64,000 bases of DNA. Source: Ornithinimicrobium tianjinense. Lineage in GTDB: Bacteria; Actinomycetota; Actinomycetes; Actinomycetales; Dermatophilaceae. The position numbers and the translations under genes were made by a program. Positions 1 through 64,000 of this stretch are shown piece by piece. The stretch lies in the NCBI RefSeq assembly GCF_014636495.1, contig NZ_BMEM01000003.1, positions 62,001 to 126,000 on the forward strand, in the 5' to 3' direction. Under the pieces are notes generated by a model, which did no database searches, had not been told where the DNA came from, and saw nothing but the letters and a program-made list of their open reading frames with translations. How positions within the stretch are numbered: the stretch's first letter is position 1; each line of letters begins with the position of its first letter.

Positions 1-475
1 CGTCGGTGGCTCCCGCGACCAGCACTGCGTGCTTCATCCGGTCCAGCGGCCCGGTGGCGTCGGGGAGCGCGGCGAGAAGGGGAGCGAGGGCATCGCGGAG
101 CGGGTCGAACGACTCTCGCGACGGCATACCGGGCACGAGGTCCCCGGTGAGGAGGGCACGGACCTCCTCGGCGGAGGCGTGCCCGGCGAGGTCGGTGACG
201 TCCCGCCCCCGGTAGGCCAGCCGTCCCGGGCCGATCTCGGTGATCGCCGTGCGCACGTCATCGCTCGCGGCAGGCCGGCGGCGACGCCCCGAGCGCGCAC
301 CCCCGGCGAGCGCCTGCACGTCGGCGAGGGCGAAGAGGCTGCCCGCCGACGGGTCGCGCCGCAGCGGGGTCAGGACGCCCCGGCTGACGTAGGCGTAGAC
401 GGTCTGCACCTTCACGCCGAGGTAGTCCGCGACCTGCGCGGACGTGAGCTCGCCCTCCGGCCGGAGACGGCTCAT
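1..475 (-). CDS. Citrate synthase-like protein with N-terminal HTH (partial, 3' end beyond window)
   Basis: The first 158 codons are visible, from an ATG at 475 to the window edge. Residues about 8-50 read as a MerR/excisionase-type helix-turn-helix (LTSAQVADYLGVKVQTVYAY, then a beta-wing ending in LFALADV). From about residue 78 the text changes to the start of a citrate synthase fold (ITEIGPGRLAYRGRDV, then LAGHASAEEVRALL). HTH-citrate synthases next to a second citrate synthase are known in actinobacteria. It diverges from the citrate synthase at 529, and the 53-bp gap holds two dyads that could be its own operator. Whether it still has catalytic residues cannot be judged because the C-terminal part is missing. 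The family call is firm; the regulatory role is inferred. Confidence 0.85.
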   Translation of the reverse strand, partial: MSRLRPEGELTSAQVADYLGVKVQTVYAYVSRGVLTPLRRDPSAGSLFALADVQALAGGARSGRRRRPAASDDVRTAITEIGPGRLAYRGRDVTDLAGHASAEEVRALLTGDLVPGMPSRESFDPLRDALAPLLAALPDATGPLDRMKHAVLVAGATD

Positions 476-508
476 GTTGACTCGATCAACGTTGACACGG
501 TGATCAAC
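476..508. promoter_or_regulatory. Two adjacent GTTGA-N-TCAAC dyads (putative operator)
   Basis: Positions 476-490 read GTTGACTCGATCAAC and 491-508 read GTTGACACGGTGATCAAC, so four half-sites alternate within 33 bp and the junction TCAACGTTGA (486-495) is itself palindromic. The dyads abut the ATG of the HTH-citrate synthase at 475 and cover the -35 hexamer of the divergent citrate synthase. Binding by the HTH-citrate synthase is an inference from position. Confidence 0.6.
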
Positions 509-521
509 CCTAGGTCACGCT
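492..521 (+). promoter_or_regulatory. Promoter of the citrate synthase at 529
   Basis: A perfect TTGACA lies at 492-497, followed after 18 bp by CACGCT (516-521), a TANNNT-like -10, and the ATG starts 7 bases later. No Shine-Dalgarno sequence precedes the ATG, so the transcript is probably leaderless. The -35 overlaps the dyad operator. Confidence 0.5.
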
Positions 522-528
522 CGCTGAC

Positions 529-1674
529 ATGACCAGCACCCAGATCGTCGCCCCCGCCGGGCTCAAGGACGTCGTCGTCGCGGACACCACCACCGGGGAC
601 GTGAGGGGGCGGGAGGGCTTCTACCACTTCCGGCAGTACCCCGCGGTCGAGCTCGCGCGGACACGGTCCTTCGAGGACGTCTGCCACCTCATGCTCGAGG
701 GGACCCTGCCCACGCCGGCGCAGTCGGCGGCGCTGCGGGAGCGCCTCGCCGCCGCGGCCGTGCTCCCGCCCGAGCTGCTGCGGCTGCTCCCCGACGTCGC
801 CCGGTCGGGGCCGGACCGCGCCTCGCTCTCGCGGCTGCGCACCGCGGTCTCGCACCTCGGCGCGCTGGACGGCTTCGCCCCGACGTATGGCGCGCCCGCC
901 GAGCAGGTGCGCGCCGACGTGCTCCGGCTGGTGGCGACCGTGCCTGTGCTCCAGGCCGCGATCCACCGGCTGCGCGCCGGGCTCGATCCGCTGCCGGCGC
1001 GACCGGAGCTGGGGGCGGCCGGCAGCTGGCTGTGGATGCTCGGCGGGGAGGAACCGGGCGAGAGGGAAAGGCGGGCGATCACGGCATACCTGACCTCGAC
1101 GGTGGACCACGGCTTCAGCGCGTCGACCTTCGCCGCGCGGGTGGTGACCTCGGCGGGCTCGGACGTCGCCTCCGCGATCTGCGCGGCGATCGGCACGTTC
1201 GCCGGGCCGCTGCACGGCGGCGCCCCCGACCGCGCGCTGGATGCGCTCGACGAGATCGGGTCGGCGGACCGGGCGCGGGAGTGGGTGCGCGAGAAGGTCG
1301 CGGCCGGCGAGCGGATCATGGGCTTCGGGCACGCGGTCTACCGGACCATGGACCCCCGTGCGGCGCTGCTGCGGGAGATCGCGGTCGGGATGGGTGGGCC
1401 GCTCGTGGACCTCGCGGTCCGGGTCGAGGAGGAGGTCGTGAGCGCGCTGGCCGAGCTCAAGCCCGGGCGGGAGCTGCACACCAACGTCGAGTACTACGCG
1501 GGCGTGGTCATGGAGCTGTGCGGGATCCCGCGCGAGATGTTCACGCCGACCTTCGCGACGGCGCGGGTCGTCGGCTGGGGCGCGCACGTCATCGAGCAGA
1601 CGCAGAGCCCGAAGATCTTCCGGCCGTCCGCACGCTACGTCGGCCCCGAGGCCCCCGCACCCCTGCCGTCCTGA
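529..1674 (+). CDS. Citrate synthase / 2-methylcitrate synthase family
   Basis: 381 aa. Condenses acetyl-CoA (or propionyl-CoA) with oxaloacetate at the entry to the TCA or methylcitrate cycle; cytosolic. The three active-site blocks are visible: GPLHGGAPDRALD (first catalytic His), GFGHAVYRTMDPRA (second His) and LHTNVEYYAGVVMELCG. In the third block Glu stands where many citrate synthases have the catalytic Asp (NVD). The C-terminus has the usual PSARYVGP ending. Length fits the short bacterial type. It diverges from an HTH-citrate synthase and is probably controlled through the dyads at 476-508. Citrate and methylcitrate activity cannot be separated from sequence alone. Confidence 0.92.
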   Translation: MTSTQIVAPAGLKDVVVADTTTGDVRGREGFYHFRQYPAVELARTRSFEDVCHLMLEGTLPTPAQSAALRERLAAAAVLPPELLRLLPDVARSGPDRASLSRLRTAVSHLGALDGFAPTYGAPAEQVRADVLRLVATVPVLQAAIHRLRAGLDPLPARPELGAAGSWLWMLGGEEPGERERRAITAYLTSTVDHGFSASTFAARVVTSAGSDVASAICAAIGTFAGPLHGGAPDRALDALDEIGSADRAREWVREKVAAGERIMGFGHAVYRTMDPRAALLREIAVGMGGPLVDLAVRVEEEVVSALAELKPGRELHTNVEYYAGVVMELCGIPREMFTPTFATARVVGWGAHVIEQTQSPKIFRPSARYVGPEAPAPLPS

Positions 1675-1675
1675 C

Positions 1676-2659
1676 CTACTCCCCCGCCAGCGCGCTGCGC
1701 AGCGCCCTCTCTTCCTCGTCCGTGAGCCCGCAGGCCCGCGGCCGGGCCTCGTCCCGGGTCTCTTCGTAGGCCAGCGCCCGCGCCAGGGTCTCCTCCAACG
1801 GCCGGGTGACCAGGCCCTCCCGCCGGGCTGCGGAGGTGTCCAGCGTCGAGAACCACCGCATCGTCGGCTCGGCGATCCACAGCGGCAACGACCTCGGACC
1901 CATCCACTGGTTGACGCCCTCGCGAGCCAGCACGTCCAACGCCACCGGACGCGCCTCGGCACCGCTGCCGGCGACGCGCCGGGCGGCGTCGACCACCGCG
2001 CCGAGCGAGGTCGTGGGGCCGGTCGCGTTGAACGTCCCGTCCACCCGCCGCTCGGCGGCGAGCACGATCCACGCGGCGAGGTCGTCGACGTCGATCAGCG
2101 ACACCGGCAGCTCAGGATCGTCGGGGACGAGCACGTCAGGACCGGTCGGGTGGGCGAACCGCCAGGGGTAGTAGCCCGTGCGCCCGCTGGCATCACCAGG
2201 CCCCCCGATCAGCCCCGCCCGGACCACCGTGGACGTCCCCGGGGCACGGCGGACCGCCACCTCGCACGCGACCTTCGCCGCGCCATACTCCTCCATCCCC
2301 GACATGACGTCCGCCTCCAGCGGGTCGACCACGGGGGCCTGCTCGTCCTGCTCGGGCGTGTCGGCGCGCGCGTAGACGTTGGCGGTCGACACCTGGACCC
2401 GGTGGGAGGTATGCAGATCGCGCACCGCTCGACGGACGTGCCCGGGCAGGGTCGCGAGGTCGACGACCGCGTCCCAGGGTCGGTCGGACACCGGCGCCAG
2501 CGCGCCGTCGTCGTCACGGTCGGCCAGCACCAGGCGGACGCCGTCGGGCACGGGGCCGGACCCGCGGGCCAAGCAGGTGACGTCATGGCCGCGGTCGCGC
2601 GCGGCGGTGGCCACGGCATACCCGAGGAAGCGGGTGCCGCCGAGGATGAGGAGCTCCAT
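1676..2659 (-). CDS. NAD-dependent epimerase/reductase, extended SDR type
   Basis: 327 aa. The N-terminal GGTRFLGYAVATAARDRGHD is a Rossmann NAD(P) loop. YGAAKVACE (about residue 128) is the YxxxK catalytic pair of extended SDRs, with a preceding serine in STANVYA. This is the family of sugar epimerases and isoflavone-reductase-like enzymes; the substrate is unknown. It converges on the citrate synthase with only one base between the stop codons and no hairpin there. A CAGGCT hexamer six bases upstream of the ATG suggests leaderless expression and supports the start. Confidence 0.8.
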   Translation of the reverse strand: MELLILGGTRFLGYAVATAARDRGHDVTCLARGSGPVPDGVRLVLADRDDDGALAPVSDRPWDAVVDLATLPGHVRRAVRDLHTSHRVQVSTANVYARADTPEQDEQAPVVDPLEADVMSGMEEYGAAKVACEVAVRRAPGTSTVVRAGLIGGPGDASGRTGYYPWRFAHPTGPDVLVPDDPELPVSLIDVDDLAAWIVLAAERRVDGTFNATGPTTSLGAVVDAARRVAGSGAEARPVALDVLAREGVNQWMGPRSLPLWIAEPTMRWFSTLDTSAARREGLVTRPLEETLARALAYEETRDEARPRACGLTDEEERALRSALAGE

Positions 2660-2671: not shown

Positions 2672-2788
2672 CCCCCCTTCGCCACCGAACGCGCGGAATG
2701 GCTGCGCCGCCGGGGAGCAACCACGTGACGCGCTCGGCGGGGAGCGGGGTCAGCGCTCGCCGCGCGGATCGGCAGGCGCTGACCACGG

Positions 2789-2794
2789 CATACT
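2789..2794 (+). promoter_or_regulatory. -10 hexamer CATACT, 6 nt before the GTG at 2801
   Basis: CATACT is followed by CGACAG and the GTG. It lies inside a copy of the recurrent GGCATAC motif. Leaderless expression is inferred. Confidence 0.4.
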
Positions 2795-3291: not shown

Positions 3292-4491
3292 TCAGCCCTC
3301 CTCGAGCGGCCGGCCGACCGCCTGCCGCAACCCGTCCATCGCGTCCCAGTCGTTGATCTGCATGGCGGCGACGACCGTGCCGTCCTTGACGTAGCGCACC
3401 GTCAGCACCCGCCCGGCCACGTCGCCGTCGATGACCGCGCGGTCGTAGCCGTCGGGACCGGGGCTGCCGACGTACTCCATCCCGAGGTCGTACTGATCGG
3501 TGTAGAAGTACGGCATCGTCCGGTATGCCGCGTCGTCGCCCAGGATCGCCCGCGCGGCGTGGCGCCCCTGCTGGCGCGCGACGTCCCAGTGCTCGACGCG
3601 CACGCGCCGGCCGAGCACGGGATGGTCCTCGGAGGCGATGTCGCCGGCCGCCCAGACGTGCGGATCGCTCGTGCGCAGCGTCTCGTCCACCGCGACGCCG
3701 CCGTCCTCCGCGATGGTGAGGCCCGCCTGCTCCGCGAGCCTGACGCGGGGCCGCACGCCGATGCCGACCACGAGCGCGTCGGCGGTGACGGTGCTGCCGT
3801 CGCTCAGGCTCGCGACGACCGTGGGCCGACCGTCCTCGTCCGGGCCGTCGGCGAGCGACTCCACCGTGGTGGACAGGCGCAGGTCCACCCCGTGCTCGCG
3901 GTGCAGGTCAGCGAAGAGCCGCCCCATCTCCGGTCCCAGCACGCGGCCGAGCGGCAGCTCGGCCGGCTCGACCACCGTGACCTCGACCTCGTGCTGCCGG
4001 GCCGCGGCCGCGACCTCGAGCCCGATCCACCCGGCGCCGATCACGAGCAGGCGTCGGGCGTGCCCGCCGCCCTCCCACAGCGCGGCGATGGCCTCGGAGT
4101 CCTCCACGGTCCGCAGGTAGCTCATGGGCACGCTGAGCCCCTCGGCGTCGGGCAGGTGCCGCGGCTCGGAGCCGGTCGCGAGCAGGAGCGCGTCGTAGTG
4201 CAGCTCCTCACCCCCGTCGAGCGTGACCATCTGGCGTCCGAGGTCCAATGCGACCGCCTCGGAGCCGAGGCGCAGGGAGACCCGGCGCTCGTCATACCAG
4301 GCCCGGTCGTGGACCTCGGCGTCCGCCGGGGAGCTCTTGCCCAGGAGCACGTCCTTGGACAGCGGGGGGCGCTCGTAGGGCAGGTGCTCCTCCGCACCCA
4401 CCAGGGTGATCTCGCCGGTGTGGCCCGCCTTGCGCAGCTCCTCGACGGCGCGCGCGCCCGCGAGCCCTCCACCGACCACGACGACGTGCAT
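3292..4491 (-). CDS. NAD(P)/FAD-dependent oxidoreductase (ferredoxin/rubredoxin reductase-like)
   Basis: 399 aa. GGGLAGARAVEELRKAGHTG at the N-terminus is the FAD dinucleotide loop, GAGWIGLEVAAAARQ (about residue 150) is the NAD(P) loop, and VWAAGDIA (about 285) is the second FAD-contacting motif. The last 80 residues form a reductase C-terminal domain with HWDVARQQGRHAARAI. This architecture is that of putidaredoxin/rhodocoxin reductases, which pass electrons from NAD(P)H to a small iron-sulfur partner. No ferredoxin or P450 gene is adjacent, so the partner is unknown. GAGGAGGTCGTC precedes the ATG as a ribosome site. Confidence 0.88.
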   Translation of the reverse strand: MHVVVVGGGLAGARAVEELRKAGHTGEITLVGAEEHLPYERPPLSKDVLLGKSSPADAEVHDRAWYDERRVSLRLGSEAVALDLGRQMVTLDGGEELHYDALLLATGSEPRHLPDAEGLSVPMSYLRTVEDSEAIAALWEGGGHARRLLVIGAGWIGLEVAAAARQHEVEVTVVEPAELPLGRVLGPEMGRLFADLHREHGVDLRLSTTVESLADGPDEDGRPTVVASLSDGSTVTADALVVGIGVRPRVRLAEQAGLTIAEDGGVAVDETLRTSDPHVWAAGDIASEDHPVLGRRVRVEHWDVARQQGRHAARAILGDDAAYRTMPYFYTDQYDLGMEYVGSPGPDGYDRAVIDGDVAGRVLTVRYVKDGTVVAAMQINDWDAMDGLRQAVGRPLEEG

Positions 4492-5510: not shown

Positions 5511-6788
5511 ATGAGCAAGGACCACTTCGACGCGCGGGCCGCGACCTATGACGACCCTGCCAAGGAGGGGGTCGCCGACGAGGTGGCGCGGGGCATCGTC
5601 GCCGCGGGCGCGGCGGTCCCGGGCCAGGACGGCGGCCTCCGCCTCCTGGAGTATGGCGCGGGCACGGGCCTGGTCACGCAGGCGCTGAGCAGGCGGGTCC
5701 AGGGCGTCTCCGCCACGCTCGTCGACAGCTCGGCCGGAATGCGCGAGGTCATGCAGGCCAAGATCGCGGCCGGCACGCTGCCCGCGGACAGCCGCGTCGT
5801 CGACCTCGACCTCGAGCACGAGGAGCCTCCGGCGGACCGCTACGACCTCGTCGTGGCCTCCCTCGTGCTGCACCACGTCCACGACCTCGACCGGGTGCTG
5901 ACCGGCCTCCTCTCGCTGCTCGACGAGGGCGGTCACCTGTGCGTCGCCGACCTGGACAGCGAGGACGGCTCCTTCCACGCCTCCGTGCACGACTTCGACG
6001 GCCACCACGGCTTCGATCGCCACACGCTCGCCGAGCGGATGCGCGCCGTGGGCCTGACCGAGGTGAGCGTCGCGGACTGCACCTCGATCGAGAAGGAGGG
6101 AGCGGCATACCCGGTCTTCCTGGCGACGGGACGGCGCGTGGCGATGACCTCCGACGAGGCGGCCGGACCGGCCCGGCCGGAGCTGGACGACCTCAAGGGC
6201 TGGCTGCTGCGCTACCTGCAGAGCGCCCGGGACGCGCTGCTGTGGAAGCTCGAGGGCCTGTCGGAGTACGACCTTCGCCGACCGCTCACCCCGACCGGCA
6301 CCAACCTGCTCGGCCTGGTCAAGCACCTGGCCAGCGTCGAGCTGGGCTATCTGGGCGACAGCTTCGGCCGACCGAGCGGCATCCCGCTGCCGTGGTACGA
6401 CGACGACGCCGAGGCCAACGCCGACCTGTGGGCGACCGCGGACGAGACCAGCGAGGAGATCATCGACTTCTACCGTCGCGCCTGGGCGCACGGCGACGCC
6501 ACCGTCGCGGCCCTGGACCTCGACGCGCGCGGCCAGGTGCCGTGGTGGGGCGAGCACTCGGAGGTCTCGCTGGGGCAGATCCTCGTCCACCTGACGACCG
6601 AGACCCACCGGCACGCCGGGCACGCCGACATCGTCCGTGAGCTCATCGACGGCCAGGCCGGTCTGCGGCCGGGCGTGAGCAACCTGCCCGAGCAGAGCGT
6701 CGAGGCCTGGGCCGCCCACCGCGAGCGCGTCGAGGGTGCCGCGCGGGCGGCCGGCCACGCGGAGACGCTGCCGCCCGAGCAGGTCTGA
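5511..6788 (+). CDS. Fusion: class I SAM methyltransferase + DinB/DUF664 domain
   Basis: 425 aa in one uninterrupted frame. Residues 1-208 are a class I methyltransferase: LLEYGAGTGLVTQAL is the SAM motif I, VDSSAGM motif II, and LVVASLVLHHV post-motif. Residues about 213-420 are a DUF664 protein of the DinB superfamily (LRYLQSARDALLWKLEGLSE, then HRHAGHADIVRELIDG). Many such proteins are mycothiol-dependent metalloenzymes, and its His residues (HLASVE, HLTTETHRH) could bind the metal. Each half is the normal length of a free-standing protein, and MTSDEAAG at the junction resembles a DinB start codon, so loss of a stop codon probably joined two genes. Substrates unknown. Confidence 0.82.
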   Translation: MSKDHFDARAATYDDPAKEGVADEVARGIVAAGAAVPGQDGGLRLLEYGAGTGLVTQALSRRVQGVSATLVDSSAGMREVMQAKIAAGTLPADSRVVDLDLEHEEPPADRYDLVVASLVLHHVHDLDRVLTGLLSLLDEGGHLCVADLDSEDGSFHASVHDFDGHHGFDRHTLAERMRAVGLTEVSVADCTSIEKEGAAYPVFLATGRRVAMTSDEAAGPARPELDDLKGWLLRYLQSARDALLWKLEGLSEYDLRRPLTPTGTNLLGLVKHLASVELGYLGDSFGRPSGIPLPWYDDDAEANADLWATADETSEEIIDFYRRAWAHGDATVAALDLDARGQVPWWGEHSEVSLGQILVHLTTETHRHAGHADIVRELIDGQAGLRPGVSNLPEQSVEAWAAHRERVEGAARAAGHAETLPPEQV

Positions 6789-6793: not shown

Positions 6794-8005
6794 GTGGGCG
6801 CCAGTTCCTCGCCGGTGCGCCACGTCGACGACGAGGAGCGGCGGGCCCGGATCGCGGTCCGGCACGCCCTGCACCCGGCGCACCGGGTCGTCGGCACCCT
6901 CGCCGCCACCCGGGCGATGACGGTCCTGCACGCGACCGAGGCCGCCAGCGTGCATCTCGCGGTGGCCGCCCGCACCGACGGCACCACGCCCGCCGACGTC
7001 GAAGGCGCCCTCTACGACGACCGGCCCGTGGTCAAGCAGCTGGCGATGCGGCGGACCCTCTTCGTCTTCACGCGCGACCTGCTGCCGGCCGCCCTGGGCA
7101 GCGCGTCGGCGCGGGTCGCCGTCGAGCAGCGCCGTCTCGTCGCCCGCGACGCAGCGCTCCACGGCGCCGGTGACGACGGCGAGGCGTGGCTGGACGCCGC
7201 GCGCAGGGCGGTCCTCGCCCGACTGGCGGACGGGTCGGCCCACTCCGCGCGCGACCTGCGCGAGCAGCTGCCCGAGCTGGCCGGGACCTACACGGTCAGC
7301 CCGGACAAGAGCTACGGCGGCACCACCCACCTCGCGCCGCGGGTGCTGACCACTCTCGGCGCCGACGGCCTGATCGTGCGCGGCCCCAACGCCGGGCACT
7401 GGCGCATCAACAGACCCACCTGGGCGCTCAGCTCGGTCTGGCTCGGCGAGCGGGTGGAGCCGCTCACCTCCCGGGAAGGGTATGCCGAGCTCGTGCGCCG
7501 CTGGCTGCGCACCTTCGGGCCGGGCACCGTCGAGGACGTGCAGTGGTGGCTCGGCTCCACCAAGACGGCCGTCCGGACCGCCCTCGCCGACGTCGACGCG
7601 GTGGCCGTCAGCCTCGACGGCGGCGGCACCGGGTGGCTGCTGCCCGACGATGCCGAGCCCGTCGCCGCACCGGGGCCGTGGGCCGCCCTCCTGCCGGTGC
7701 TCGACCCCACGACCATGGGCTGGCGCGGGCGCGACTTCTACCTCGAGCCGGCGAACACGCCATACCTCTTCGACAGCAACGGCAACGGCGGGACGACCGC
7801 CTGGTGGAACGGCCGCGTGGTCGGCGCCTGGGTGCAGGACGCCGACGCCCGGGTGCGTGTCCTGCCCCTGCCGGGCACCCGTCTCCCCCGCGTCGCGCGG
7901 GACGCGCTCGCCACCGAGGCCGACCGGCTCACCGCGTGGCTCGACGGGGTGGTGGTGAGCACCATCTACCGCTCGCAGCTCATGCGGTCCGCCGGTCCCG
8001 CCTGA
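6794..8005 (+). CDS. Winged-helix DNA-binding-domain protein (HTH_42/YcaQ-like)
   Basis: 403 aa from a GTG six bases after the previous stop, so probably co-transcribed. The order of conserved blocks fits the HTH_42 family: an N-terminal helix-rich part with HATEAASVHLAVAAR, a winged-helix segment, LVRRWLRTFGPGTVEDVQWW near residue 235, LPVLDPTTMGWRGRDFYL near 300 and WWNGRVVGAWVQ near 337. Distant members (YcaQ/AlkX, AlkZ) are DNA glycosylases that unhook crosslinks, but the role of the actinobacterial branch is not established. A diverged second member lies at 13434-14525. Confidence 0.78.
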   Translation: MGASSSPVRHVDDEERRARIAVRHALHPAHRVVGTLAATRAMTVLHATEAASVHLAVAARTDGTTPADVEGALYDDRPVVKQLAMRRTLFVFTRDLLPAALGSASARVAVEQRRLVARDAALHGAGDDGEAWLDAARRAVLARLADGSAHSARDLREQLPELAGTYTVSPDKSYGGTTHLAPRVLTTLGADGLIVRGPNAGHWRINRPTWALSSVWLGERVEPLTSREGYAELVRRWLRTFGPGTVEDVQWWLGSTKTAVRTALADVDAVAVSLDGGGTGWLLPDDAEPVAAPGPWAALLPVLDPTTMGWRGRDFYLEPANTPYLFDSNGNGGTTAWWNGRVVGAWVQDADARVRVLPLPGTRLPRVARDALATEADRLTAWLDGVVVSTIYRSQLMRSAGPA

Positions 8006-9067: not shown

Positions 9068-9137
9068 CGGAGGGGGGTGGGGTCGAGCTCGCGCGGCGGC
9101 CCGGGCGGTCCGACCTGCGGGGGGCACGGCGACGGCA

Positions 9138-9143
9138 TACCGT
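9138..9143 (+). promoter_or_regulatory. -10 hexamer TACCGT, 6 nt before the ATG at 9150
   Basis: TACCGT, GCCTGG, ATG. The hexamer is embedded in a copy of the recurrent GGCATACC octamer (9135-9142). No SD sequence. Confidence 0.5.
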
Positions 9144-37168: not shown

Positions 37169-37194
37169 CGTGGTGCTCTCCCCTTTCGTGAGAG

Positions 37195-37211: not shown

Positions 37212-37261
37212 ATGGGTTGTTCTTCTGGGTGTGCCCGGTGAGGGCTGAGAGATCAGGTGGA

Positions 37262-37882: not shown

Positions 37883-37922
37883 GTGTCGTCCTTGATCCGT
37901 GATCCGTGGTGGGGGGTGCGAC

Positions 37923-38210: not shown

Positions 38211-38221
38211 GCGTGAACCCA

Positions 38222-43976: not shown

Positions 43977-43993
43977 CAGGGAGATCCTTTCCG

Positions 43994-55462: not shown

Positions 55463-58149
55463 GCAAGATGTCCGCCGTGCTGGACGGCGCCCACGCCCAC
55501 GGCTACCTGCTGACCGCGGCCCGCCCGGGCGTCCCCGCGCGCCCGTGGCCCGCGGACGTCACCGGCTGGTCCGCGCACGACGACATCCTGCCCGGGCTCA
55601 CCCTGCGCTCCCACCCCCGCACCGTGGTGAGGCACGCCGCCGGGGTGAACGGCGTCGTGGTGCTCCTGGGCCACCCCGTCGACGTGGACGCCGGGATCAG
55701 CGACGCCGCCCGGGTCGCCACCCGGCTCTGCGCGACCTGGGACCTCCAGGACGACGACGCGCTCGTCCGCGAGGCCGCGGGGCTGGGCGGACGGTGGACC
55801 CTCCTGGCCGCCCGTCGCCACGGCGAGCTGCTCGTCGTCCCCGACGCCCACGCCACCCAACCCGTGTTCTACGCCACCGCGGGCGGGCACCTGGCCCTGG
55901 CCAGCACGCCCGCCCTCGCGGCCGCCGCCCTCGACCTGCCGGTCGACGAGGACGCGCTGACCCTGCTGGCCGAGCTCCGCGAGCGGCGCCGCGGGGCCGT
56001 GACCTACCTGCCCGGCCTGCGGACGCCCTACGAGGGCCTGCTGCCGCTGGTCCCCAACTGCCTCCTGCGCATCGACCCCGCGACGTTGCACGTGGAACAC
56101 CGGCGGTTCTGGCCGTGGCAGGACCGCGAGGAGCGGACGGACACCGAGGCGGTCTACCAGCGTTTCCGCGAGCGCCTCGCCGCGCACGTCCGGCTCCTCG
56201 CCGGGCTCGGCGTCCCCGCCCTCAGCCTCACCGCCGGCGGTGACAGCCGCGTGACGGCGGCGCTGGCTCACGAGCAGGTGCGCGCGGGGGGCGGCCTCGC
56301 CTTCACCTACGTCAACCCGCGCGACGCGCGCAACGGCGCCGCGGCCATGGCCGACGTCACCGGCGCGAGCGCGGTGGCCGCGCAGCTCGGCATCCCGCAC
56401 CGGGTGCTGCGGTGGCGCCAGCCGCCGGAGGGCGGGGCCTTCGACCTGCTGCACCGCCGCACCTACGCCCCGCTCGTGCCCTCCCGCGGGGCCGCGCACG
56501 CGATGTGGGCCGACCTGCCGCGCGACCTCGTGCAGCTGCAGTCCAACGGCGCCGAGACGGGGACGGCCTTCCTGCGCCGCCGGACCGACGAGCCCCTCTC
56601 CCCGCTGCGGCTCGCGCGGATGATGATGCACGCCGCCGAGGGGCTCGAGGACCTGGCCGGCCGCATGTACACCGGTTACCTCGAGCACGCCGAGATGCAG
56701 CCGGCCCGCCTCCACGGCTACGACCACCACGACGTCTTCTACTGGGAGCAGCGGATGGGGCGCTGGGGCTGGCAGAAGTTCCTCGACGGCGACCTCGGGC
56801 ACCGCGTGCTCGCCCCGTTCAACGACCGCGTGCTGCTCGAGACGATGCTGGCGCTGCCCTACCCGCAGCGGGAGAGCAAGATGCTGCTCGCGCGCGTGCT
56901 GGAGGACGTCCCCGCAGCGCGCCTGCCCCGCACCCCGGCGGCCCCGGCCTCGCTCGCCCGCTCCGTGACGGGGCTCCTGCCCGGCCGGGCGACCCGGCGC
57001 CTGGACGCCGTCGTCGGGCGACGCGAGCGCGCCGCCGAGACCTCCCGGCTCGCCTTCGCGCAGGGGTATGCCGTGCTGCCCCCGGGTGCGCACGGCACCC
57101 GGGTGCCGGCCGGCTGGGGACGGCTCACCCTGCCGCAGGGAGCCTTCGGCCGGACCTCCGGTGCCGGGATGGTGCTGCGCCACCATCCCCGGCTGCCCCA
57201 CGCCTTCGCCGGCGACGGTTCGGGCTGGGTGCTGGTCCTGGGCGAGCCGGCCTGGCTGCGCCACGAGCTGGACGGGCCGCAGGTCGTCGCCAGGGTGCTG
57301 CACGACCTGCTCGTCGGCGGGACCCAGGGCCCCCAGCTGCTGGCGGACGATCGTGGGCGCGGCCTCGACGCGGTCGTGGCGGCGGGCGCGGGGCTGGTGG
57401 GTCGCTATGTCGTGGTGGTGGGCGACCGCCGTCGCACCCTGGTCATGACGGACCCGCTGTCCGCGCTGGGGGCCCACCTGCCCGCGGACAGCCCCGGGCT
57501 GGTGTCCCACGCCCGGCTGCTCGTGGGCGACACCCTCCCGCTCAGCCCCGACGAGGTGCTCGCCGTGGAGGGGGCGGGACCGACGCTCACCGAGCTCGAC
57601 CAGCTCGTCGACCTGCCCTCGCTCGCCCTGCCCCGCCACGTGGAGGACCCGACGACCGGTGCGGACCGGCTGGCCCGGCACACCCGGATCCTGAGCCACC
57701 GCGGACCGGCCTGGCTGGGGCTCACCGCGTCCCGGGCGGGAGCCGAGCTGCTGCCGCACCTCGTCGCCAGCGCCGGAGGTGCGATCACCTGGTGGGACCG
57801 CACGGCCGACGACGCGGCGGCCGCAGACGTCATCGCCGCGTCCGAGCGCGCCCGCGAGGCAGGGGTGCAGCACCGCGTGGTCGGTCTGCGGGAGGACGCG
57901 GACGGTGGCCGGGCCGGCGACGCCCGCCGCGCCGCGGCTGCGGCGGCGCTGCGCACCACCTGGGGCGAGGGGACCGAGGACCGGCTGCCCGTCTCCTCCG
58001 CGCTCGACGCCGCGCTGCCCGCCGACGCCGTCCTCTGGCTGGGCGACCTACCCGGCACCGGCTCGCGGACGTGGGAGCTGGTCCAGGGGGTGCGCCGGGT
58101 CGCGCTGCCCTTCAGCGACCGGCTGCTGCCCCACCTGCCCCGTCGCTGA
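55459..58149 (+). CDS. Double asparagine-synthetase-like protein
   Basis: 896 aa from a GTG (GTGA overlap with wecB). Residues about 60-240 are a glutaminase-like domain without the N-terminal catalytic Cys (LGGRWTLLAARRHGELLVVP), followed by an ATP-pyrophosphatase domain with LTAGGDSRVTAALAHEQV (259-275) as PP-loop. A second round begins near 645 (GRYVVVVGDRRRTLVMTDPL) and has GLTASRAGAELLPHL near 755 in place of the PP-loop, so the second module seems dead. Asparagine-synthetase-like proteins in glycan clusters amidate or link sugars. Without the Cys it must use free ammonia or another amine. The 3' end overlaps the convergent GT gene by 38 bp. Confidence 0.75.
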   Translation: MSKMSAVLDGAHAHGYLLTAARPGVPARPWPADVTGWSAHDDILPGLTLRSHPRTVVRHAAGVNGVVVLLGHPVDVDAGISDAARVATRLCATWDLQDDDALVREAAGLGGRWTLLAARRHGELLVVPDAHATQPVFYATAGGHLALASTPALAAAALDLPVDEDALTLLAELRERRRGAVTYLPGLRTPYEGLLPLVPNCLLRIDPATLHVEHRRFWPWQDREERTDTEAVYQRFRERLAAHVRLLAGLGVPALSLTAGGDSRVTAALAHEQVRAGGGLAFTYVNPRDARNGAAAMADVTGASAVAAQLGIPHRVLRWRQPPEGGAFDLLHRRTYAPLVPSRGAAHAMWADLPRDLVQLQSNGAETGTAFLRRRTDEPLSPLRLARMMMHAAEGLEDLAGRMYTGYLEHAEMQPARLHGYDHHDVFYWEQRMGRWGWQKFLDGDLGHRVLAPFNDRVLLETMLALPYPQRESKMLLARVLEDVPAARLPRTPAAPASLARSVTGLLPGRATRRLDAVVGRRERAAETSRLAFAQGYAVLPPGAHGTRVPAGWGRLTLPQGAFGRTSGAGMVLRHHPRLPHAFAGDGSGWVLVLGEPAWLRHELDGPQVVARVLHDLLVGGTQGPQLLADDRGRGLDAVVAAGAGLVGRYVVVVGDRRRTLVMTDPLSALGAHLPADSPGLVSHARLLVGDTLPLSPDEVLAVEGAGPTLTELDQLVDLPSLALPRHVEDPTTGADRLARHTRILSHRGPAWLGLTASRAGAELLPHLVASAGGAITWWDRTADDAAAADVIAASERAREAGVQHRVVGLREDADGGRAGDARRAAAAAALRTTWGEGTEDRLPVSSALDAALPADAVLWLGDLPGTGSRTWELVQGVRRVALPFSDRLLPHLPRR

Positions 58150-60649
58150 CCCCGAGCTGGCGCAGCCGGGCGACGAACGAGGCGTGGCCGTAGCGCTCGC
58201 GGACCAGGTCCTGCACCTGGGCGACGCGCGCGGCATACCTCGCGGGGTCGCGCACGTAGGACTCGATGACCGCGCGAGACTCCTCGGGCAGGGCGTAGTC
58301 GAGCACGTCGCCGAAGACCGGCCGGTGCTTGGGGTGCGCGACCACGAGGACGCCGGAGGCCGCCGCCTCGAGCAGCACGCGGCCGAACGCCTCGTGCCGG
58401 CCGGGATGGTCCTGGTAGAGGAAGACGTCCAGGCCGGCGAGGAGCTCGCGGGGGTCCACGGAGCCGACGCGCAGCATCTCCCACTCGCGCGGGGGCCGGG
58501 TGTCCTCCCGCAGGCCGGCCTCCCGGCACAACCTCTTCCAGGTCGCCCGCGCGCCCATCAGGCGCACCACGTAGCCGGGGCCGATGTCGTAGGCCGCCAG
58601 CAGGTCCGCGTGCGTCGGCGGGAACTTCAGCGGGTGGTCGCGTGAGTAGCGCCCGACGACCACCGGGGCACCGCCGGCACCGGGCGGCCGGTCGTCGCGC
58701 ACGTGCCACTCGTCGACGTCGATGAGCCCCGGGTTGTCCCACGGGGTGAGGGCCAGGCCGGGGTCCTGCTGGAGGAGCACCTGGCGCAGCACCGGTCCCT
58801 GCGGCACCCAGACGGGCTCGGTGCCGAACAGCTCGCGGGCCCGCGCGGTGACGTCGGCGACGACGTAGCGCTGGTCGGTGCCGTCCGGCTCCAGCGGCGC
58901 CTGGTTGGCCATGACCAGCAGGTGCCGCGGGCGGAGAGCCCGACCGGACGGCACGCTCGGCGGGTGCTGCAGCACGAGCGGGTAGCGCACCATGAGCACG
59001 TCCACCTCGACGTCGTCGTCCAGCTGGACCCACTCGACCTCGCCGCGCCGCACCAGGTCGACGACCGGCGCGCACAGCGGCAGGTCCTTGGTCGTCGCGA
59101 AGCGCAGCGCCTCCAGGTGCAGGATGCCCACGCGCAGCCCCGCCTCGCGCGCGGCGCGCAGCTCCTCGATCATCGAGCGCTGCGGCCCGCCGTAGCGGCG
59201 CCAGTCACCGCCCAGGACGAGGTCGAGGTGGGCGGGCGGCGGCGGCCCGGGGTCGTGCGCCTTGCGCCAGCGGCGCGGCTCGGGGAAGGCGCGCGGGCCC
59301 TCCGGGTCCAGGTATGGCGTGGCGCCCGCGGCGATCTCCTCGTGCCAGGGCGTGTAGAGGCCCTTGTACTGGTGGCGGGCGCCGTGCCGCCACATCCTGG
59401 AGAACTCGTCGGAGGACAGCGTCTGGCCCGACCGCAGCAGCAGCAGGCACTCGTCGACGGTCACGACCGACCCGGCACCGAAGGCCGCCTCGATCCGTCG
59501 GGCGTACTCGGTGTCGGCGCCCTTGCGGGTGGGGTCGAGGAAGCCGACGCGGCCCAGCACCCGGGCGACCCGGAAGAGGAGCGTCGGCGCGGCGACCGCC
59601 CGGTGCCGGTAGCCCAGCCGGACCAGACCCAGCCCCTCGTCGACGCGCGCGCCGAGCCCGCGCGCGGCCAGCAGCGTCGGGTCGTCCTCGAGCTGCGCCA
59701 CGAGCGTGGCGACGGACTGCGGGTGCAGCCAGTCGTCGGAGTCGAGCGTGGTGAAGTAGGTCCCGCGGGCCTGGGCGAGCGCGGTGTTGCGGGCCCGGTA
59801 GGTGCCACCGTTGGTGCGCTGGCGGATCACCCGGACGCGGGGGTCGAGCGCCTCGGCGCGCTGCAGCCAGGCCTCGGCCTCCGGGCCCGACGCGTCGTCG
59901 ACGACGAGGATCTCGAGGTGCTGCCAGGTCTGGGCCAGCAGCGAGCGCACGGCGGTCAGGAGCGGTGGGCCGGGGCGGTAGGCGCTGACGGCGACGGTGA
60001 CGAGCGGGTCGCCGTCGTGGTCGGCGCGCGGGAGCGGGTCGGTCGTGAGCCGGTCGAAGGCGGTGCCCCCGAGCGTCGGGTCCAGGCGCAGCGGCGCGAG
60101 GGCCTCCGAGTGGAGCGCAGCGTCGACGAGGGCCAACCAGGCCGCCCCGCCGTCGGGCCGCGCCAGGTCGGCGCGCACCGCGGCGGCCACGTCGGCGGGG
60201 ACCGACGGGTGGTCGAGCAGCTCCGCGCAGCCGGCCCCGTCGCCCTCGAGGCAGCGCAGGTGCAGAAGCACCAGGACCGCCTGCGGGTGCAGGTCGTCCA
60301 GCCGTCCGGCCCGGGCCAGCGCCTCGAGGATCGCGCGCCCACGCGCGACGTCGGCCGGGTCGGGGGTCTGCAGGGCCAGCACCCGGGCCAGCTGGCCGAG
60401 GTGGAAGGCGTCGGCGCCGTCGGGCAGGGCGGCCCGCCCGGGCGCGCCGGCACGGCATACCTCCTGCGCCCAGGCGTCCACCTCCTCGGCCGAGTGACCG
60501 GGCCAGGCGGCCTCGACGAGCACCTCCCGGGCGTGCAGCGACCGGGTGCGCAACGCGGTGACCGCCAGCGCGTCGGGGTGGTCGAGCAGGATCTGGTTGC
60601 GCGCGGTGTCGCGGGTCACGCCCGCGCGGGTGGCGACGGGCTCAGCCAC
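58112..60649 (-). CDS. Two-domain glycosyltransferase: GT2 + GT4-like
   Basis: 845 aa. The first 210 residues are helical repeats. About 215-340 is a GT2 domain (VTVAVSAYRPGPPLLTAVRS, LEILVVDDASG, YFTTLDSDDWLHP with the metal-binding DSD). About 480-840 is a GT-B half with VVVGRYSRDHPLKFPPTHAD and LLEAAASGVLVVAHPKHRP. Both parts seem intact, so it may add two sugars in turn. Last gene of a three-gene unit with 60642 and 61006. Confidence 0.82.
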   Translation of the reverse strand: MAEPVATRAGVTRDTARNQILLDHPDALAVTALRTRSLHAREVLVEAAWPGHSAEEVDAWAQEVCRAGAPGRAALPDGADAFHLGQLARVLALQTPDPADVARGRAILEALARAGRLDDLHPQAVLVLLHLRCLEGDGAGCAELLDHPSVPADVAAAVRADLARPDGGAAWLALVDAALHSEALAPLRLDPTLGGTAFDRLTTDPLPRADHDGDPLVTVAVSAYRPGPPLLTAVRSLLAQTWQHLEILVVDDASGPEAEAWLQRAEALDPRVRVIRQRTNGGTYRARNTALAQARGTYFTTLDSDDWLHPQSVATLVAQLEDDPTLLAARGLGARVDEGLGLVRLGYRHRAVAAPTLLFRVARVLGRVGFLDPTRKGADTEYARRIEAAFGAGSVVTVDECLLLLRSGQTLSSDEFSRMWRHGARHQYKGLYTPWHEEIAAGATPYLDPEGPRAFPEPRRWRKAHDPGPPPPAHLDLVLGGDWRRYGGPQRSMIEELRAAREAGLRVGILHLEALRFATTKDLPLCAPVVDLVRRGEVEWVQLDDDVEVDVLMVRYPLVLQHPPSVPSGRALRPRHLLVMANQAPLEPDGTDQRYVVADVTARARELFGTEPVWVPQGPVLRQVLLQQDPGLALTPWDNPGLIDVDEWHVRDDRPPGAGGAPVVVGRYSRDHPLKFPPTHADLLAAYDIGPGYVVRLMGARATWKRLCREAGLREDTRPPREWEMLRVGSVDPRELLAGLDVFLYQDHPGRHEAFGRVLLEAAASGVLVVAHPKHRPVFGDVLDYALPEESRAVIESYVRDPARYAARVAQVQDLVRERYGHASFVARLRQLGVSDGAGGAAAGR

Positions 60650-61005: not shown

Positions 61006-63339
61006 TCACGCTACCCCGGCGCCGGGGGTGGTGAGGGAGCGGTAGAGCTCGGTGTAGCGGGCGGCGTTGCGGGCCCAGGTGCGCTCGCGGACCACCCACT
61101 CCCGGGCGCGCGCCGCCACGGTGGCCCGGCCGTCGGGGTCCTCGGCGAGCCGCTCGAGCAGGTCGGCGAGCGCCGCCGCGTCGCCAGCCGGGTAGGACCA
61201 GCCCCGCTCGCCGTCGCCGATCACCTCCAGCAGCGCGGGCTGGGCGGAGACCACGACCGGTAGCCCCATCGCCATCGCCTCGAACGGCTTGAGCGGGGTG
61301 ACCAGGCGCGCCGCCCGCTCGTCGCTGCGGGGGACGACGAGGACGTCGAGCAGCGCGTAGGAGGCGGCCACCTCCTCGTGCGGCACCCGCCCGGTGAAGG
61401 TGACGACGCCGTCCGCGCCGAGCTCGGTGGTCAGCGCGCGCAGGTCCGCCTCCCCGGTGCCCGTCCCGACGACCAGGCACAGCGTGGGGCGCCCCCGGGC
61501 CTGCAGCAGCACCGCCGCGCGCACGAGGTCCTCGACCTGCTCGCGGGCGTGGTCGAGGTTGCTGACGTAGCCGAAGGTGAAGCGGCCCACCGCGTCGTGG
61601 CGCCGCGCGAGCGCGTCGTCCCGCGGGACGGGGGCGAGCCGGTCGGGGTCGACCGCGTTGGGCACGACGTGCACGCGTCCGGCCGGGACGCCGCGGCCGA
61701 CGAGGTCGTCGCGCATCGTGCCGGCCAGGGTCACGGTCGCGTCCGCCCGCGTGGCGAGGTCGGCCTCGCGCGCCATCCGCCGCTCGAACGTCTCCCCGCG
61801 CTCCGCCCGCACCTGGTCCTGCGTCCACGTGGACTCGAAGAGCCCCCTGACCTCGTAGACCCACGGCAGCCCGGTCGCGGCCGCGACCGCCGCCCCGACC
61901 ACGCCGAGGTCGTAGCCGCGGTGCCCGGAGTGGACGTGAAGGACGGCCGGGCGCTCGCGCGCCACGAGGTCGAGCACCGCGGCTGCCGCCGCCTCGAGGT
62001 ATGCCGTGCCCGTCGCCGCCACCACGGGCGGCGGCAGCAGGTGGCGGACGCCGTCGACGACGACCTCCTCCAGGACACCCGGCACCGGCTCGTCCGCGGG
62101 CTCGTCCGCGCGCTCGGGCACCGCGAGCGCCACCACGTCGACGCCTGCCTCGACCAGGGCCCGCAGCGTGTGGTGCCCCCGGACGCTGTAGCCCGCCTGG
62201 CGCTGCGGGAGGGTCGTCTTGAGCAGGTGCAGCACCCGGCCGGGCACCGGGTCGACGGGCGTGGACGGCAGCGCGGGCAGCCAGCCGGGGTCCGTCTCGC
62301 GGAGGCGGTCGTCGACGCGGTCGGTCGGCAGGCCCCGCGCCTCCAGCACCCGGCGCTCCAGGCTGAGCGACCCGGTGACGCGGGTCAGGTAGGCCATCTC
62401 GCGCAAGAGCACCGGGTCGGGGGCGTCGAGCAGCTCACCGACGAGCCGCAGCGCCTCCTCGTCGCGTCGCTCGCGGCCGAGACGCACCAGGGTGGCAGCC
62501 TCCTCGCCCAGCACGAGCGCGGCGAGCTCCTCCGGCGACGGCGCGGCGGCCGGGCCGACGACGAGCCCGGGGCGGTCGAGCAGGTGACGCCAGGGGCTGG
62601 ACCGGTCCTGCGGCCGCGGCAGATGGACGACCCGCACGCGCTCGGGCAGCCCGGGCAGCTGCGCGACGACCGGCCCGAGCCCGTCGAGCACGAGCACCTC
62701 CGCGTCGTCCGGCACCGGCGCGCCGGGGGCCAGCACCTCCACCCGCGCGCGCAGGGCGGGGGCCGTGCCGGACGGCAGCCAGCGTGGCGCCGACCCCGCG
62801 GCGTCCCCCACCGCGACGACGACCCGGTGCATGGCGCCGGGGCTCGTCGGTGCCCGGACGGTCCTGGGTGCGGGGGCCGACGGCTCCCCCTGCACCCGCC
62901 TCGTCGCGACGTCCTCGGCGATCCGCTCTGCGGCCTTGTCCCAGGTCAGCACCGGCACCGTCGCACCGCGCCGCGCCCGCCAGCGGGCCAGCGCCTGGGC
63001 GGCGTCGTCGTCGGTCGCCACGAGGCAGGTCGGGCCCGCGCCGTCCGGCGCCGGCTGCGCCAGGGCGTCCTCCAGCCACGTCGACCCCTCGAGCGCGTCG
63101 CCCAGCTCGGCCGACGTCCCGCGCAGCACCCGGCGCGCCAGGCTCTGCACCAGGCCTCCCACCACGCTCGACGTCGTCACCGGCGCCGTGAGGCGGTGCC
63201 ACTGCACCACCTCGTCGGCCGGGGGTCGCAGCGCCGCAGCCCGGACGGGCACGCCATACCGCACCGCGAGACCGAGCAGGGCCGGGACCGCGGGGTCGTC
63301 CACGCGGGCCCCGACCGCGACATACCGCTCGCTCGCCAT
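61006..63339 (-). CDS. GT4 family glycosyltransferase with long N-terminal region
   Basis: 777 aa from the ATG at 63339; a longer reading to 63972 would be antisense to a better gene. Residues 1-390 have no clear family (an alpha/beta part with VVVAVGDAAGSAPRWLPSGT, then helices). Residues about 395-777 are a GT-B enzyme: RQAGYSVRGHHTLRALVEAG, LPWVYEVRGLFESTW, VPNAVDPDRLAPVPRDD, RFTFGYVSNLDHAREQVED and LVTPLKPFEAMAMGLPVVVS. Related in its second half to the GT4 at 43994. First gene of the minus-strand three-gene unit. Confidence 0.85.
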   Translation of the reverse strand: MASERYVAVGARVDDPAVPALLGLAVRYGVPVRAAALRPPADEVVQWHRLTAPVTTSSVVGGLVQSLARRVLRGTSAELGDALEGSTWLEDALAQPAPDGAGPTCLVATDDDAAQALARWRARRGATVPVLTWDKAAERIAEDVATRRVQGEPSAPAPRTVRAPTSPGAMHRVVVAVGDAAGSAPRWLPSGTAPALRARVEVLAPGAPVPDDAEVLVLDGLGPVVAQLPGLPERVRVVHLPRPQDRSSPWRHLLDRPGLVVGPAAAPSPEELAALVLGEEAATLVRLGRERRDEEALRLVGELLDAPDPVLLREMAYLTRVTGSLSLERRVLEARGLPTDRVDDRLRETDPGWLPALPSTPVDPVPGRVLHLLKTTLPQRQAGYSVRGHHTLRALVEAGVDVVALAVPERADEPADEPVPGVLEEVVVDGVRHLLPPPVVAATGTAYLEAAAAAVLDLVARERPAVLHVHSGHRGYDLGVVGAAVAAATGLPWVYEVRGLFESTWTQDQVRAERGETFERRMAREADLATRADATVTLAGTMRDDLVGRGVPAGRVHVVPNAVDPDRLAPVPRDDALARRHDAVGRFTFGYVSNLDHAREQVEDLVRAAVLLQARGRPTLCLVVGTGTGEADLRALTTELGADGVVTFTGRVPHEEVAASYALLDVLVVPRSDERAARLVTPLKPFEAMAMGLPVVVSAQPALLEVIGDGERGWSYPAGDAAALADLLERLAEDPDGRATVAARAREWVVRERTWARNAARYTELYRSLTTPGAGVA

Positions 63340-63346
63340 GGGGCGC

Positions 63347-63352
63347 AGTCTC
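63347..63352 (-). promoter_or_regulatory. -10-like GAGACT, 7 nt before the ATG at 63339
   Basis: On the minus strand GAGACT is followed by seven bases and ATG. It faces the TAGAGT promoter of the divergent gene at 63391. Confidence 0.35.
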
Positions 63353-63377
63353 CCAGACGCGCCCGCGAGCCCAGGGC

Positions 63378-63383
63378 TAGAGT
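63378..63383 (+). promoter_or_regulatory. -10 hexamer TAGAGT, 7 nt before the ATG at 63391
   Basis: TAGAGT, GGCCGCG, ATG, with no SD sequence: a leaderless layout. Confidence 0.45.
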
Positions 63384-63390
63384 GGCCGCG

Positions 63391-64000
63391 ATGTCCACCA
63401 CCGTCCCCGCGCCCGGCGTCGCGCGCGACCTCGTGGTCGCCTACTGCTACCCGCCCTACGTCGACACGTCCGCGATCGTGGCGGCCAAGCGGGTGCGCGA
63501 GCACGGACGCCCGGTCGACGTGCTGCAGAACGCCCTCGGGTCGCTGCGTCGGACCGATCCCGGCCTGGAACGGATCGCCGGCGACCTCGTCGTCCGGCGG
63601 CACGAGGTGCCCTCGCGCAGCCACTTCGCCTCCTGGGGCGCGATGTCGCGGTTCGTCGAGCTGGGGCTGCAGCAGGCGCTGGCGTGGGACCGCGAGGGAG
63701 AGGGCTACGAGCGCGTCTACAGCCGGGCGCAGTTCGTCGCGAGCCACCTGCTGGCGGCCCGCCTGGTCCTGCAGCGGCCCGACCTGCGGTGGACCGCGGA
63801 GTTCTCCGACCCGCTCTCGCTGGACGTCACCGGGGCGACGCGGCGCTCGGCCGCCGGTGAGGGCGTGCTGCTGCGCCGCCTCGCCGAGGGCGTGCGGGCT
63901 GCGGGGTTCGAGCCGCCGACGAGCAACAACGCCTTCGAGTGGGTGGAGGTGCTTCCCTACGCCCTCGCCCACGAGCTGGTCTTCACCAACGAGCGTCAGC
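63391..64000 (+). CDS. Glycosyltransferase-like protein (partial, runs off the window)
   Basis: 203 codons seen. The start VVAYCYPPYVDTSAIVAAKR resembles the acceptor-side beginning of GT-B glycosyltransferases that act in surface polymer synthesis (YPPxxxxxA). WTAEFSDPLSLDVTGA is a typical inner strand-loop. The donor domain lies outside, so the class cannot be confirmed. It diverges from the GT4 at 63339 and extends the polysaccharide cluster beyond the window. Confidence 0.65.
   Translation, partial: MSTTVPAPGVARDLVVAYCYPPYVDTSAIVAAKRVREHGRPVDVLQNALGSLRRTDPGLERIAGDLVVRRHEVPSRSHFASWGAMSRFVELGLQQALAWDREGEGYERVYSRAQFVASHLLAARLVLQRPDLRWTAEFSDPLSLDVTGATRRSAAGEGVLLRRLAEGVRAAGFEPPTSNNAFEWVEVLPYALAHELVFTNERQ

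Follow-up and report, generated by a model that had tools for sequence, protein, structure and literature searches.

Why should one short word recur some forty times on both strands of 64 kb of G+C-rich DNA, in genes and between them, even where it brings in rare codons? The question is raised by a 64-kb stretch of the genome of Ornithinimicrobium tianjinense (contig NZ_BMEM01000003.1, positions 62,001 to 126,000; the whole stretch is called the window below), in which an earlier note had pointed to a repeated octamer, GGCATACC/GGTATGCC. The word, read here as CGGCATAC, was followed from the window to the whole genome, to the congeners and to the family, and is probably a genome-wide self-recognition tag that resembles a DNA uptake sequence (DUS). 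In uptake sequences, bacteria are seen most clearly to mark their own DNA for exchange; the best-known examples are those of the Neisseriaceae and the Pasteurellaceae. Genomes, contigs, loci and genera are referred to by our own labels (G, C, L and g numbers) where they have to be told apart.

The repeated word and its core

In the window the octamer GGCATACC/GGTATGCC was found 27 times over both strands (dinucleotide shuffles gave a mean of 0.64 and at most 4), and the heptamer GGCATAC 42 times (24 on the + strand and 18 on the - strand; shuffle mean 2.23, largest 6). The hand count of about 40 copies in the earlier note was close, and all 19 of the positions that it gave as examples lie no more than 2 bases from where a copy starts. 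All 42 copies of GGCATAC were preceded by C, and the base on the 3' side was loose (C 27, T 6, A 5 and G 4). Because C always stands before the heptamer and the base after it varies, the fixed core is CGGCATAC, and the better reading of the word is CGGCATAC, or more precisely CGNCATAC(C), in place of GGCATACC; the repeated word was thus real, and only the frame in which it had first been written was slightly off. A or G preceded CGGCATAC in 34 of the 42 copies.

The same preference was seen in 464 kb of the own genome (the window and C1:600,001-1,000,000), where C preceded 261 of 267 copies of GGCATAC. Over this length CGGCATAC behaved as a graded motif with tolerant positions, in the manner of a binding site: the nonamer with C, T or A at the third position was found 45, 27 and 17 times, against order-2 expectations of 2.9, 1.8 and 1.4. 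The full motif is about R-C-G-n-C-A-T-A-C-C. It is not palindromic (the complement of CGGCATAC is GTATGCCG), and the flanks of the copies share nothing past 1-2 bases on either side. A longer motif with a G at position -11 (31 of 42 window copies) was rejected; the signal follows a period of three and fades in the 464 kb, and is therefore probably a matter of codon phase.

Excess over composition and codon usage

The whole genome holds 1,758 copies of CGGCATAC (886 forward and 872 reverse, or 0.53 per kb) and only 29 of the reversed word, so that the excess is not limited to the window and the similar numbers on the two strands hold throughout. Markov models of order 3, 4 and 5 predicted 2.6, 9.8 and 30.3 copies for the window (42 seen) and 13.5, 60.6 and 149.2 for 400 kb of the own genome (219 seen), the order-5 model making use of hexamers of the motif itself. 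A third-order model, which the earlier note had named as a possible explanation of the count, does not account for it.

Codon usage was treated in the same way, with genes called by a simple in-house codon-usage script instead of a published caller. The called genes of the window contain 35 copies, compared with 1.6 (maximum 5) after shuffling synonymous codons within genes (100 shuffles) and 5.3 (maximum 12) when the shuffles also retained the neighbouring bases. For the 400 kb the corresponding values were 157 copies against 12.5 (maximum 23) and 20.9 (maximum 31), from 100 runs each. All four ATA codons and 16 of the 33 TAT codons in the called genes of the window lie inside the motif, as do 19 of 40 ATA and 69 of 160 TAT codons in the 400 kb. 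The motif does force rare codons, as had been claimed, with one ATA coordinate (45324) given 2 bases off, and the shuffles and genome-wide counts support the view that the word itself is selected in spite of them.

A by-product of composition, of codon pairs or of a dispersed repeat element might be considered in DNA of 73.6% G+C (the window), where numerous 8-mers depart from low-order models. This explanation retains hardly any probability, since the codon and context shuffles and the order-3 and order-4 models fall far too low, the copies lack the common flanks of a repeat element, and related genera use other spellings (see below).

Strand, spacing and paired copies

The copies are scattered nearly at random (coefficient of variation of the spacing 0.92; variance/mean in 5-kb intervals 0.82). 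In the 85 CGGCATAC-rich genomes of the family the forward fraction ranged from 0.469 to 0.528, and 20 evenly spaced 20-kb samples of a complete congener chromosome (G011) gave 96 copies on the + strand and 91 on the - strand. No consistent strand trend was found along these samples, single ones varying (e.g., 6 and 1 at 1,050 kb). The length and abundance of the octamer are within the range of Chi, and would suit a polar signal that steers recombination or DNA translocation, like Chi or the FtsK-orienting polar sequences (KOPS). With strands even both genome-wide and along G011, such roles are very improbable, and the dismissal of Chi- and KOPS-type signals in the earlier note was right as far as tested.

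Neighbouring copies at most 80 bp apart lay on opposite strands in 18 of 23 pairs (eight data sets; P 0.011), and at least two of the close pairs are perfect long hairpins outside called genes (e.g., L016 near 1,683). No such pair was found in the window or in the G062 and G106 data, and G060 had only a same-strand one. Inverted pairs and hairpins are likewise formed by the uptake sequences of Neisseria, as parts of one account describe (PMC3630211).

Distribution in the family and sister spellings

The closest named DnaB to that of the window is from Ornithinimicrobium sediminis (85%), and near kin by the same protein are Intrasporangium, Terrabacter, Phycicoccus, Knoellia, Pedococcus and Janibacter. 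The family sampled (f1) is one that we take to be the Dermatophilaceae of GTDB. Among 23 congeners, 22 hold 394 to 1,901 copies of CGGCATAC and one, G022, holds 50. Across the family at least 300 copies were found in 85 of 149 sampled genomes and 31 of 53 genera, by richness thresholds that were set by us and applied to manually transcribed count tables. None of the 290 sampled genomes of the class outside the family (296 sampled in all) was clearly enriched; the highest count there was 386 in 7.5 Mb, with a control count of 176, and higher ratios to the control occurred only at small counts (e.g., 44 vs 6). Among the genomes sampled, enrichment in CGGCATAC is confined to one family.

Sister words were sought as any over-represented 8-mer in 40- or 60-kb samples of 19 genomes, most of them CGGCATAC-poor. 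CGGCATCC occurred 35 times in G063 (order-3 expectation 3.3), and CGGCGTAC 28 times in G060 and 24 times in G117 (4.3 and 5.0). Only some of the 19 gave a clear sister word, and the others may use other words or none. In the counts of all 149 genomes, 11 were rich in CGGCGTAC (785 to 4,185 copies, with a ratio to the control of five or more) and seven in CGGCATCC (2,099 to 4,480 copies); three of these seven, all of genus g59, were also above the CGGCATAC threshold. More than 1,000 copies each of CGGCATAC and CGGCATCC are held by G081 and G116, and otherwise there is usually one spelling per genome. One of the three words, or dialects, is borne by 100 of the 149 genomes and none of them by the other 49 (the no-dialect genomes), and genus g40 is itself split, G062 and G132 using CGGCATAC and G106 using CGGCGTAC. 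The comparison across related genera that the earlier note had proposed thus brought out two sister spellings.

The third position is loose in the CGGCGTAC genomes too (CGNCGTAC), with CGCCGTAC, CGTCGTAC and CGACGTAC found 192, 210 and 104 times against 212 for the G form (expectations 59 to 74). This shared tolerance suggests that CGGCATAC and CGGCGTAC have one reading architecture; in the CGGCATCC sample there was little looseness at that position (17, 6 and 7 vs 67). When the dialects were laid on a ComEC tree of 27 rows, seven label changes were needed, 'no dialect' and 'mixed' being counted as labels, and CGGCATAC and CGGCGTAC each fell into two or more parts of the tree, in which G022 lies outside the rest of Ornithinimicrobium.

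Other over-represented words were also met. In 40 kb of G098 (genus g28; L063-L064) the palindrome GCGATCGC, which is the word of the cyanobacterial highly iterated palindrome HIP1, occurred 30 times over both strands (order-3 expectation 9.0), and ATCGCGAT was in about sevenfold excess (12 vs 1.7). Two genomes without the three dialects gave CCGCATCG (38 vs 8.6; G094, L057-L058) and AGTAGGTG and TCCGCTAA (18 vs 1.6 and 8 vs 0.06; G124, L061-L062), the last two of which may be local repeats.

In-place change of spelling

A site that reads CGGCATAC in one genome can read CGGCGTAC in a genome of the other dialect, having been respelled where it stands. For the g40 pair of opposite dialect, 300 kb of G106 was aligned to 280 kb of G062, giving 145 kb aligned at 78%. 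Eighteen of the 48 CGGCATAC sites of G062 faced CGGCGTAC in G106 and none was unchanged; seen from G106, 18 of 60 sites were switched and 4 unchanged. At other 8-mers of the pair, the equivalent single change was seen in 606 of 101,070 cases.

Since CGGCGTAC is also a natural G+C-rich precursor, the no-dialect genomes are a fair control. Sites from eight CGGCATAC sources faced CGGCGTAC in 45 of 114 cases in 16 loci of the CGGCGTAC dialect, and in 18 of 206 cases in 37 no-dialect loci, the mean identity being 71.7% for the first set of loci and 72.5% for the second. A comparison was possible for seven of the eight sources, all of which had a higher share of CGGCGTAC against the CGGCGTAC-dialect loci. 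Where the other seven letters matched, the variable letter was G in 45 of 48 cases in the CGGCGTAC-dialect loci and in 18 of 32 in the no-dialect loci. A first run of the test had given 45/116 against 18/208 with a Fisher P of 1.5e-10, which is too small because loci recur in the sums; the contrast is still large. The proposal that CGGCGTAC is a mere G+C-rich precursor was rejected, as it accounts for the 18/206 and not for the 45/114.

Near-matches were compared between the 75 genomes with at least 1,000 copies of CGGCATAC and the 49 no-dialect genomes, by ratios to the control that were not corrected for kinship. The median was 1.22 against 2.15 for CGGCGTAC and 2.22 against 2.24 for CGGCATCC, which is not depleted.

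The scarcity of CGGCGTAC where CGGCATAC abounds would be in keeping with a word of the HIP1 kind, on which a solitary DNA methyltransferase acts and which methylation-linked repair creates and keeps. Cyanobacterial HIP1 words occur often, and their alternate spellings are linked to methyltransferases, according to part of one study (PMC4390886). That CGGCATCC is not depleted and that CGGCATAC is no palindrome speak against such an origin. In addition, neither the own genome nor G044, the CGGCATAC-richest of the 149 (4,724 copies), has a match to PF01555 or PF02384, the two main DNA-methylase families that were searched (others, e.g., PF00145, were outside the search), and both families are missing from 26 of the 100 word-bearing genomes. 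The methylation model is weakened because the own genome has neither, and is considered improbable. The presence of a methylase was rejected as the cause of the distribution as well: PF01555 was matched in 38 of the 100 word-bearing genomes and in 22 of the 49 without a dialect, and PF02384 in 66 and 38, respectively.

The main rival, which is somewhat unlikely, is that the word is the site of an intracellular chromosome protein (nucleoid-associated, or acting in condensation or in recombination and repair) whose specificity changed in sister lineages. Genome-wide scatter over both strands and a graded motif with tolerant positions would suit such a protein, as would the scarcity of copies in one prophage (2 in the 34.1-kb prophage part of G002, 11 expected; P 0.001), and a protein co-evolving with its sites would also yield dialects and in-place switching. 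Words known to organise chromosomes favour one strand or certain positions. The present word showed no bias of this sort, and the joint respelling of thousands of sites would be easier if copies were favoured in DNA exchange than if they only served as docking sites for a protein inside the cell.

Competence genes and a possible reader

The earlier note had offered DNA uptake, methylation and a nucleoid protein as functions. Methylation is weakened and the nucleoid protein stays the main rival; DNA uptake fits best, because of the dialects, the respelling in place, some inverted pairs, the lack of strand bias and the confinement to one family that bears competence genes. The low number of copies in the prophage part of G002 is in keeping with this reading as well. 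A DNA-uptake protein would prefer double-stranded DNA bearing CGGCATAC; the binder would most likely be a minor pilin of a Flp/Tad competence pilus, and less likely ComEA. DNA from dead kin would then be imported and recombined more frequently than DNA of foreign origin, and copies would thereby accumulate and be retained throughout the recombining genome, even where rare codons are the price. With each shift in the preference of the receptor the set of sites would drift to a new spelling, giving CGGCATAC, CGGCGTAC and CGGCATCC in sister lineages. On balance, and a little less firmly than for the tag as such, we lean towards a DNA-uptake-sequence system that evolved independently in one family of the Actinomycetota and has three or more dialects; it would be read by a Flp/Tad pilus, and sets of some 1,000 or more sites would have been rewritten in place as the taste of the receptor changed.

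Genes for such machinery are present in the own genome. comEA (L032 7,718-8,869, - strand) adjoins comEC (L032 5,245-7,725, - strand), and Tad-like genes, among them those of a TadA-type ATPase and a Flp-like pilin, form a cluster at L197 8.9-13 kb, their names resting on a reading of the sequences and on a PF00437 match. Transformation of Micrococcus luteus requires tad genes of this type, as reported in a part of PMC4322843.

Several results weigh against the uptake reading. ComEC was found in 145 of the 149 family genomes (the four without it are all word-bearing drafts), including all 49 no-dialect genomes, and a T2SSE-type ATPase match in 148 of 149, including 48 of the 49; three genomes without a T2SSE match above the family cut-off (G043, G122 and G127) are all no-dialect drafts and too few to carry weight. 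Both being near-universal, neither explains who has the word, and some specificity factor must differ between word-bearing and word-free lineages. No receptor for the word was found among the competence genes compared, and no candidate was singled out; PilM was matched in only 5 of the 149 genomes. In genus g59 the switching test was negative, with 0/7 (G081) and 0/3 (G116) CGGCATAC sites spelled CGGCATCC in G139 and 0/1 switched in the G153-G081 comparison. The positions of CGGCATAC were moderately conserved, at 3/8, 2/4, 1/4, 3/5 and 3/8 in five partly overlapping congener comparisons and 1/3 in a sixth (other 8-mers 14-24%), and none of seven alignable sites was conserved against Terrabacter, Knoellia and Phycicoccus. 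Among the papers listed in a literature search of Creative Commons-licensed papers in PubMed Central (PMC) there was no report of transformation for these genera. Nor was there any on the word or on uptake sequences in the family, a result that holds for that set of papers and does not establish absence in print; the one paper listed for the octamers as whole words is on a Ralstonia MLVA scheme.

As causes of the distribution, the presence of ComEC and that of T2SSE/TadA were rejected for want of contrast. Type IVa pili were set aside too, since PilM_2 (PF11104) in its few genomes does not follow the word, as was the gene content of the Tad cluster, several genes of the own cluster recurring in no-dialect genomes.

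In the word-poor congener G022, comEC runs to about residue 430 and then passes into unrelated sequence (contig 11, L177 8390-8504). Some 113 bp separate the break from the end of its contig, in a 230-contig assembly, and the break may be real or an assembly join; the rest of the gene had no match among those listed for that genome. A broken comEC would fit the uptake reading, but the draft assembly and the outside branching of G022 weaken the point.

Interruptions of comEC were noted elsewhere. In G002 (L178 and L179, C1:1160421-1202884) a prophage insert of about 40 kb cuts the gene, with what reads as a serine-recombinase gene beside comEC. In contig 46 of G017 the gene is apparently cut too, into two pieces about 40 kb apart; in G086 (L089) the start of comEC falls close to the same codons (SAVSGSNV), and G131, G152 and G177 have partial PF03772 matches whose starts on the profile lie near that position too. 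From these sequences, of which only G002 was read closely, comEC looks as if it contains a recurrent phage attachment site; no paper on such a site in comEC was among those listed in the literature search. A stray ComEC fragment of 55 residues (residues 252-306, 75% identical), far from comEC in G007 (G007:C1:3479319-3479483), spans the same breakpoint and was perhaps carried by a mobile element.

Comparison with known systems

To judge from the letters, the word appears DUS-like in most of the tests applied; the exceptions are the test of switching in g59, which was negative, and that of hairpins, which was mixed. As in the Neisseriaceae, going by portions of PMC3630211, short copies occur in their thousands in genes and gaps, dialects a letter or so apart share a core, two dialects can occur in one genome, and some inverted pairs form hairpins between genes. 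The DUS receptor of the Neisseriaceae is the minor pilin ComP (PMC3868556, in part). Unlike the DUS, the present word belongs to the Actinomycetota, has unrelated letters and is a putative uptake word with a putative receptor, and 144 of the 149 family genomes have no PilM match. The uptake signal sequence (USS) of the Pasteurellaceae is short, highly abundant and linked to competence, and its types differ between lineages. The present word is like it in abundance and in its lineage-specific types, with a putative link to competence, and differs in the word itself, the phylum and the machinery.

HIP1 of cyanobacteria is also a highly repeated octamer with alternate spellings in relatives; HIP words are palindromic and tied to methyltransferases, as set out in sections of PMC4390886, whereas CGGCATAC is asymmetric and its own genome is without PF01555 and PF02384. 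The nearest likeness in gene content is the Flp/Tad-dependent transformation of Micrococcus luteus, another actinobacterium with comEA/comEC, tad genes and a Flp pilin (parts of PMC4322843). The terms 'uptake sequence' and 'uptake signal' are absent from the main text of that paper.

Copies in the window and neighbouring genes

The 42 copies are listed in Table 1. The stretch 23867-38222 of the window is a conserved chromosomal neighbourhood, with dnaB and a Mrp-type antiporter operon by Pfam matches and then rplI, rpsR, ssb and rpsF as read from their N-termini. Four open reading frames of the window, possibly in wrong frames, had no match at 1e-10 to NCBIfam profiles.

Table 1. Positions and strands of the CGGCATAC copies in the 64-kb window.
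Feature	Position	Strand	Remark
CGGCATAC copy	122..129	+	
CGGCATAC copy	1082..1089	+	
CGGCATAC copy	2614..2621	+	
CGGCATAC copy	2786..2793	+	
CGGCATAC copy	3523..3530	-	
CGGCATAC copy	6103..6110	+	
CGGCATAC copy	7480..7487	-	
CGGCATAC copy	8857..8864	-	
CGGCATAC copy	9133..9140	+	
CGGCATAC copy	10126..10133	+	
CGGCATAC copy	11111..11118	-	
CGGCATAC copy	11197..11204	+	
CGGCATAC copy	13913..13920	-	
CGGCATAC copy	14741..14748	+	
CGGCATAC copy	16205..16212	+	
CGGCATAC copy	17764..17771	-	
CGGCATAC copy	17856..17863	+	
CGGCATAC copy	19281..19288	-	
CGGCATAC copy	19939..19946	-	
CGGCATAC copy	21384..21391	+	
CGGCATAC copy	22625..22632	+	
CGGCATAC copy	23775..23782	-	
CGGCATAC copy	24751..24758	+	in dnaB helicase gene (23867-25234, -)
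CGGCATAC copy	24932..24939	-	in dnaB helicase gene (23867-25234, -)
CGGCATAC copy	25992..25999	+	rare ATA codon, called gene 25306-26910
CGGCATAC copy	29145..29152	+	
CGGCATAC copy	29393..29400	+	
CGGCATAC copy	30678..30685	-	
CGGCATAC copy	31690..31697	+	
CGGCATAC copy	32824..32831	-	
CGGCATAC copy	33306..33313	+	
CGGCATAC copy	38643..38650	-	
CGGCATAC copy	42820..42827	+	
CGGCATAC copy	42953..42960	-	
CGGCATAC copy	44464..44471	-	
CGGCATAC copy	45019..45026	+	rare ATA codon, called gene 43631-46189
CGGCATAC copy	45322..45329	+	rare ATA codon, called gene 43631-46189
CGGCATAC copy	48101..48108	-	
CGGCATAC copy	57066..57073	-	
CGGCATAC copy	58231..58238	+	
CGGCATAC copy	60453..60460	+	
CGGCATAC copy	61999..62006	-	

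Implications

If the word is a tag for DNA uptake, it would add to the best-known cases, those of the Neisseriaceae and Pasteurellaceae, an independent one in high-G+C Gram-positive bacteria with a different pilus, and self-marking tags would be seen to evolve repeatedly. Should the word have another role, it remains one that is very strongly favoured and in need of a binding protein. As an uptake tag it would lead one to expect natural, self-specific transformation in Ornithinimicrobium, Terrabacter, Knoellia, Phycicoccus and their kin, and the series of dialects, including the congener pair of opposite dialect (G062 and G106), would offer a means of finding the receptor by comparison. For laboratory genetics of these environmental genera, DNA that bears the word may be taken up better.

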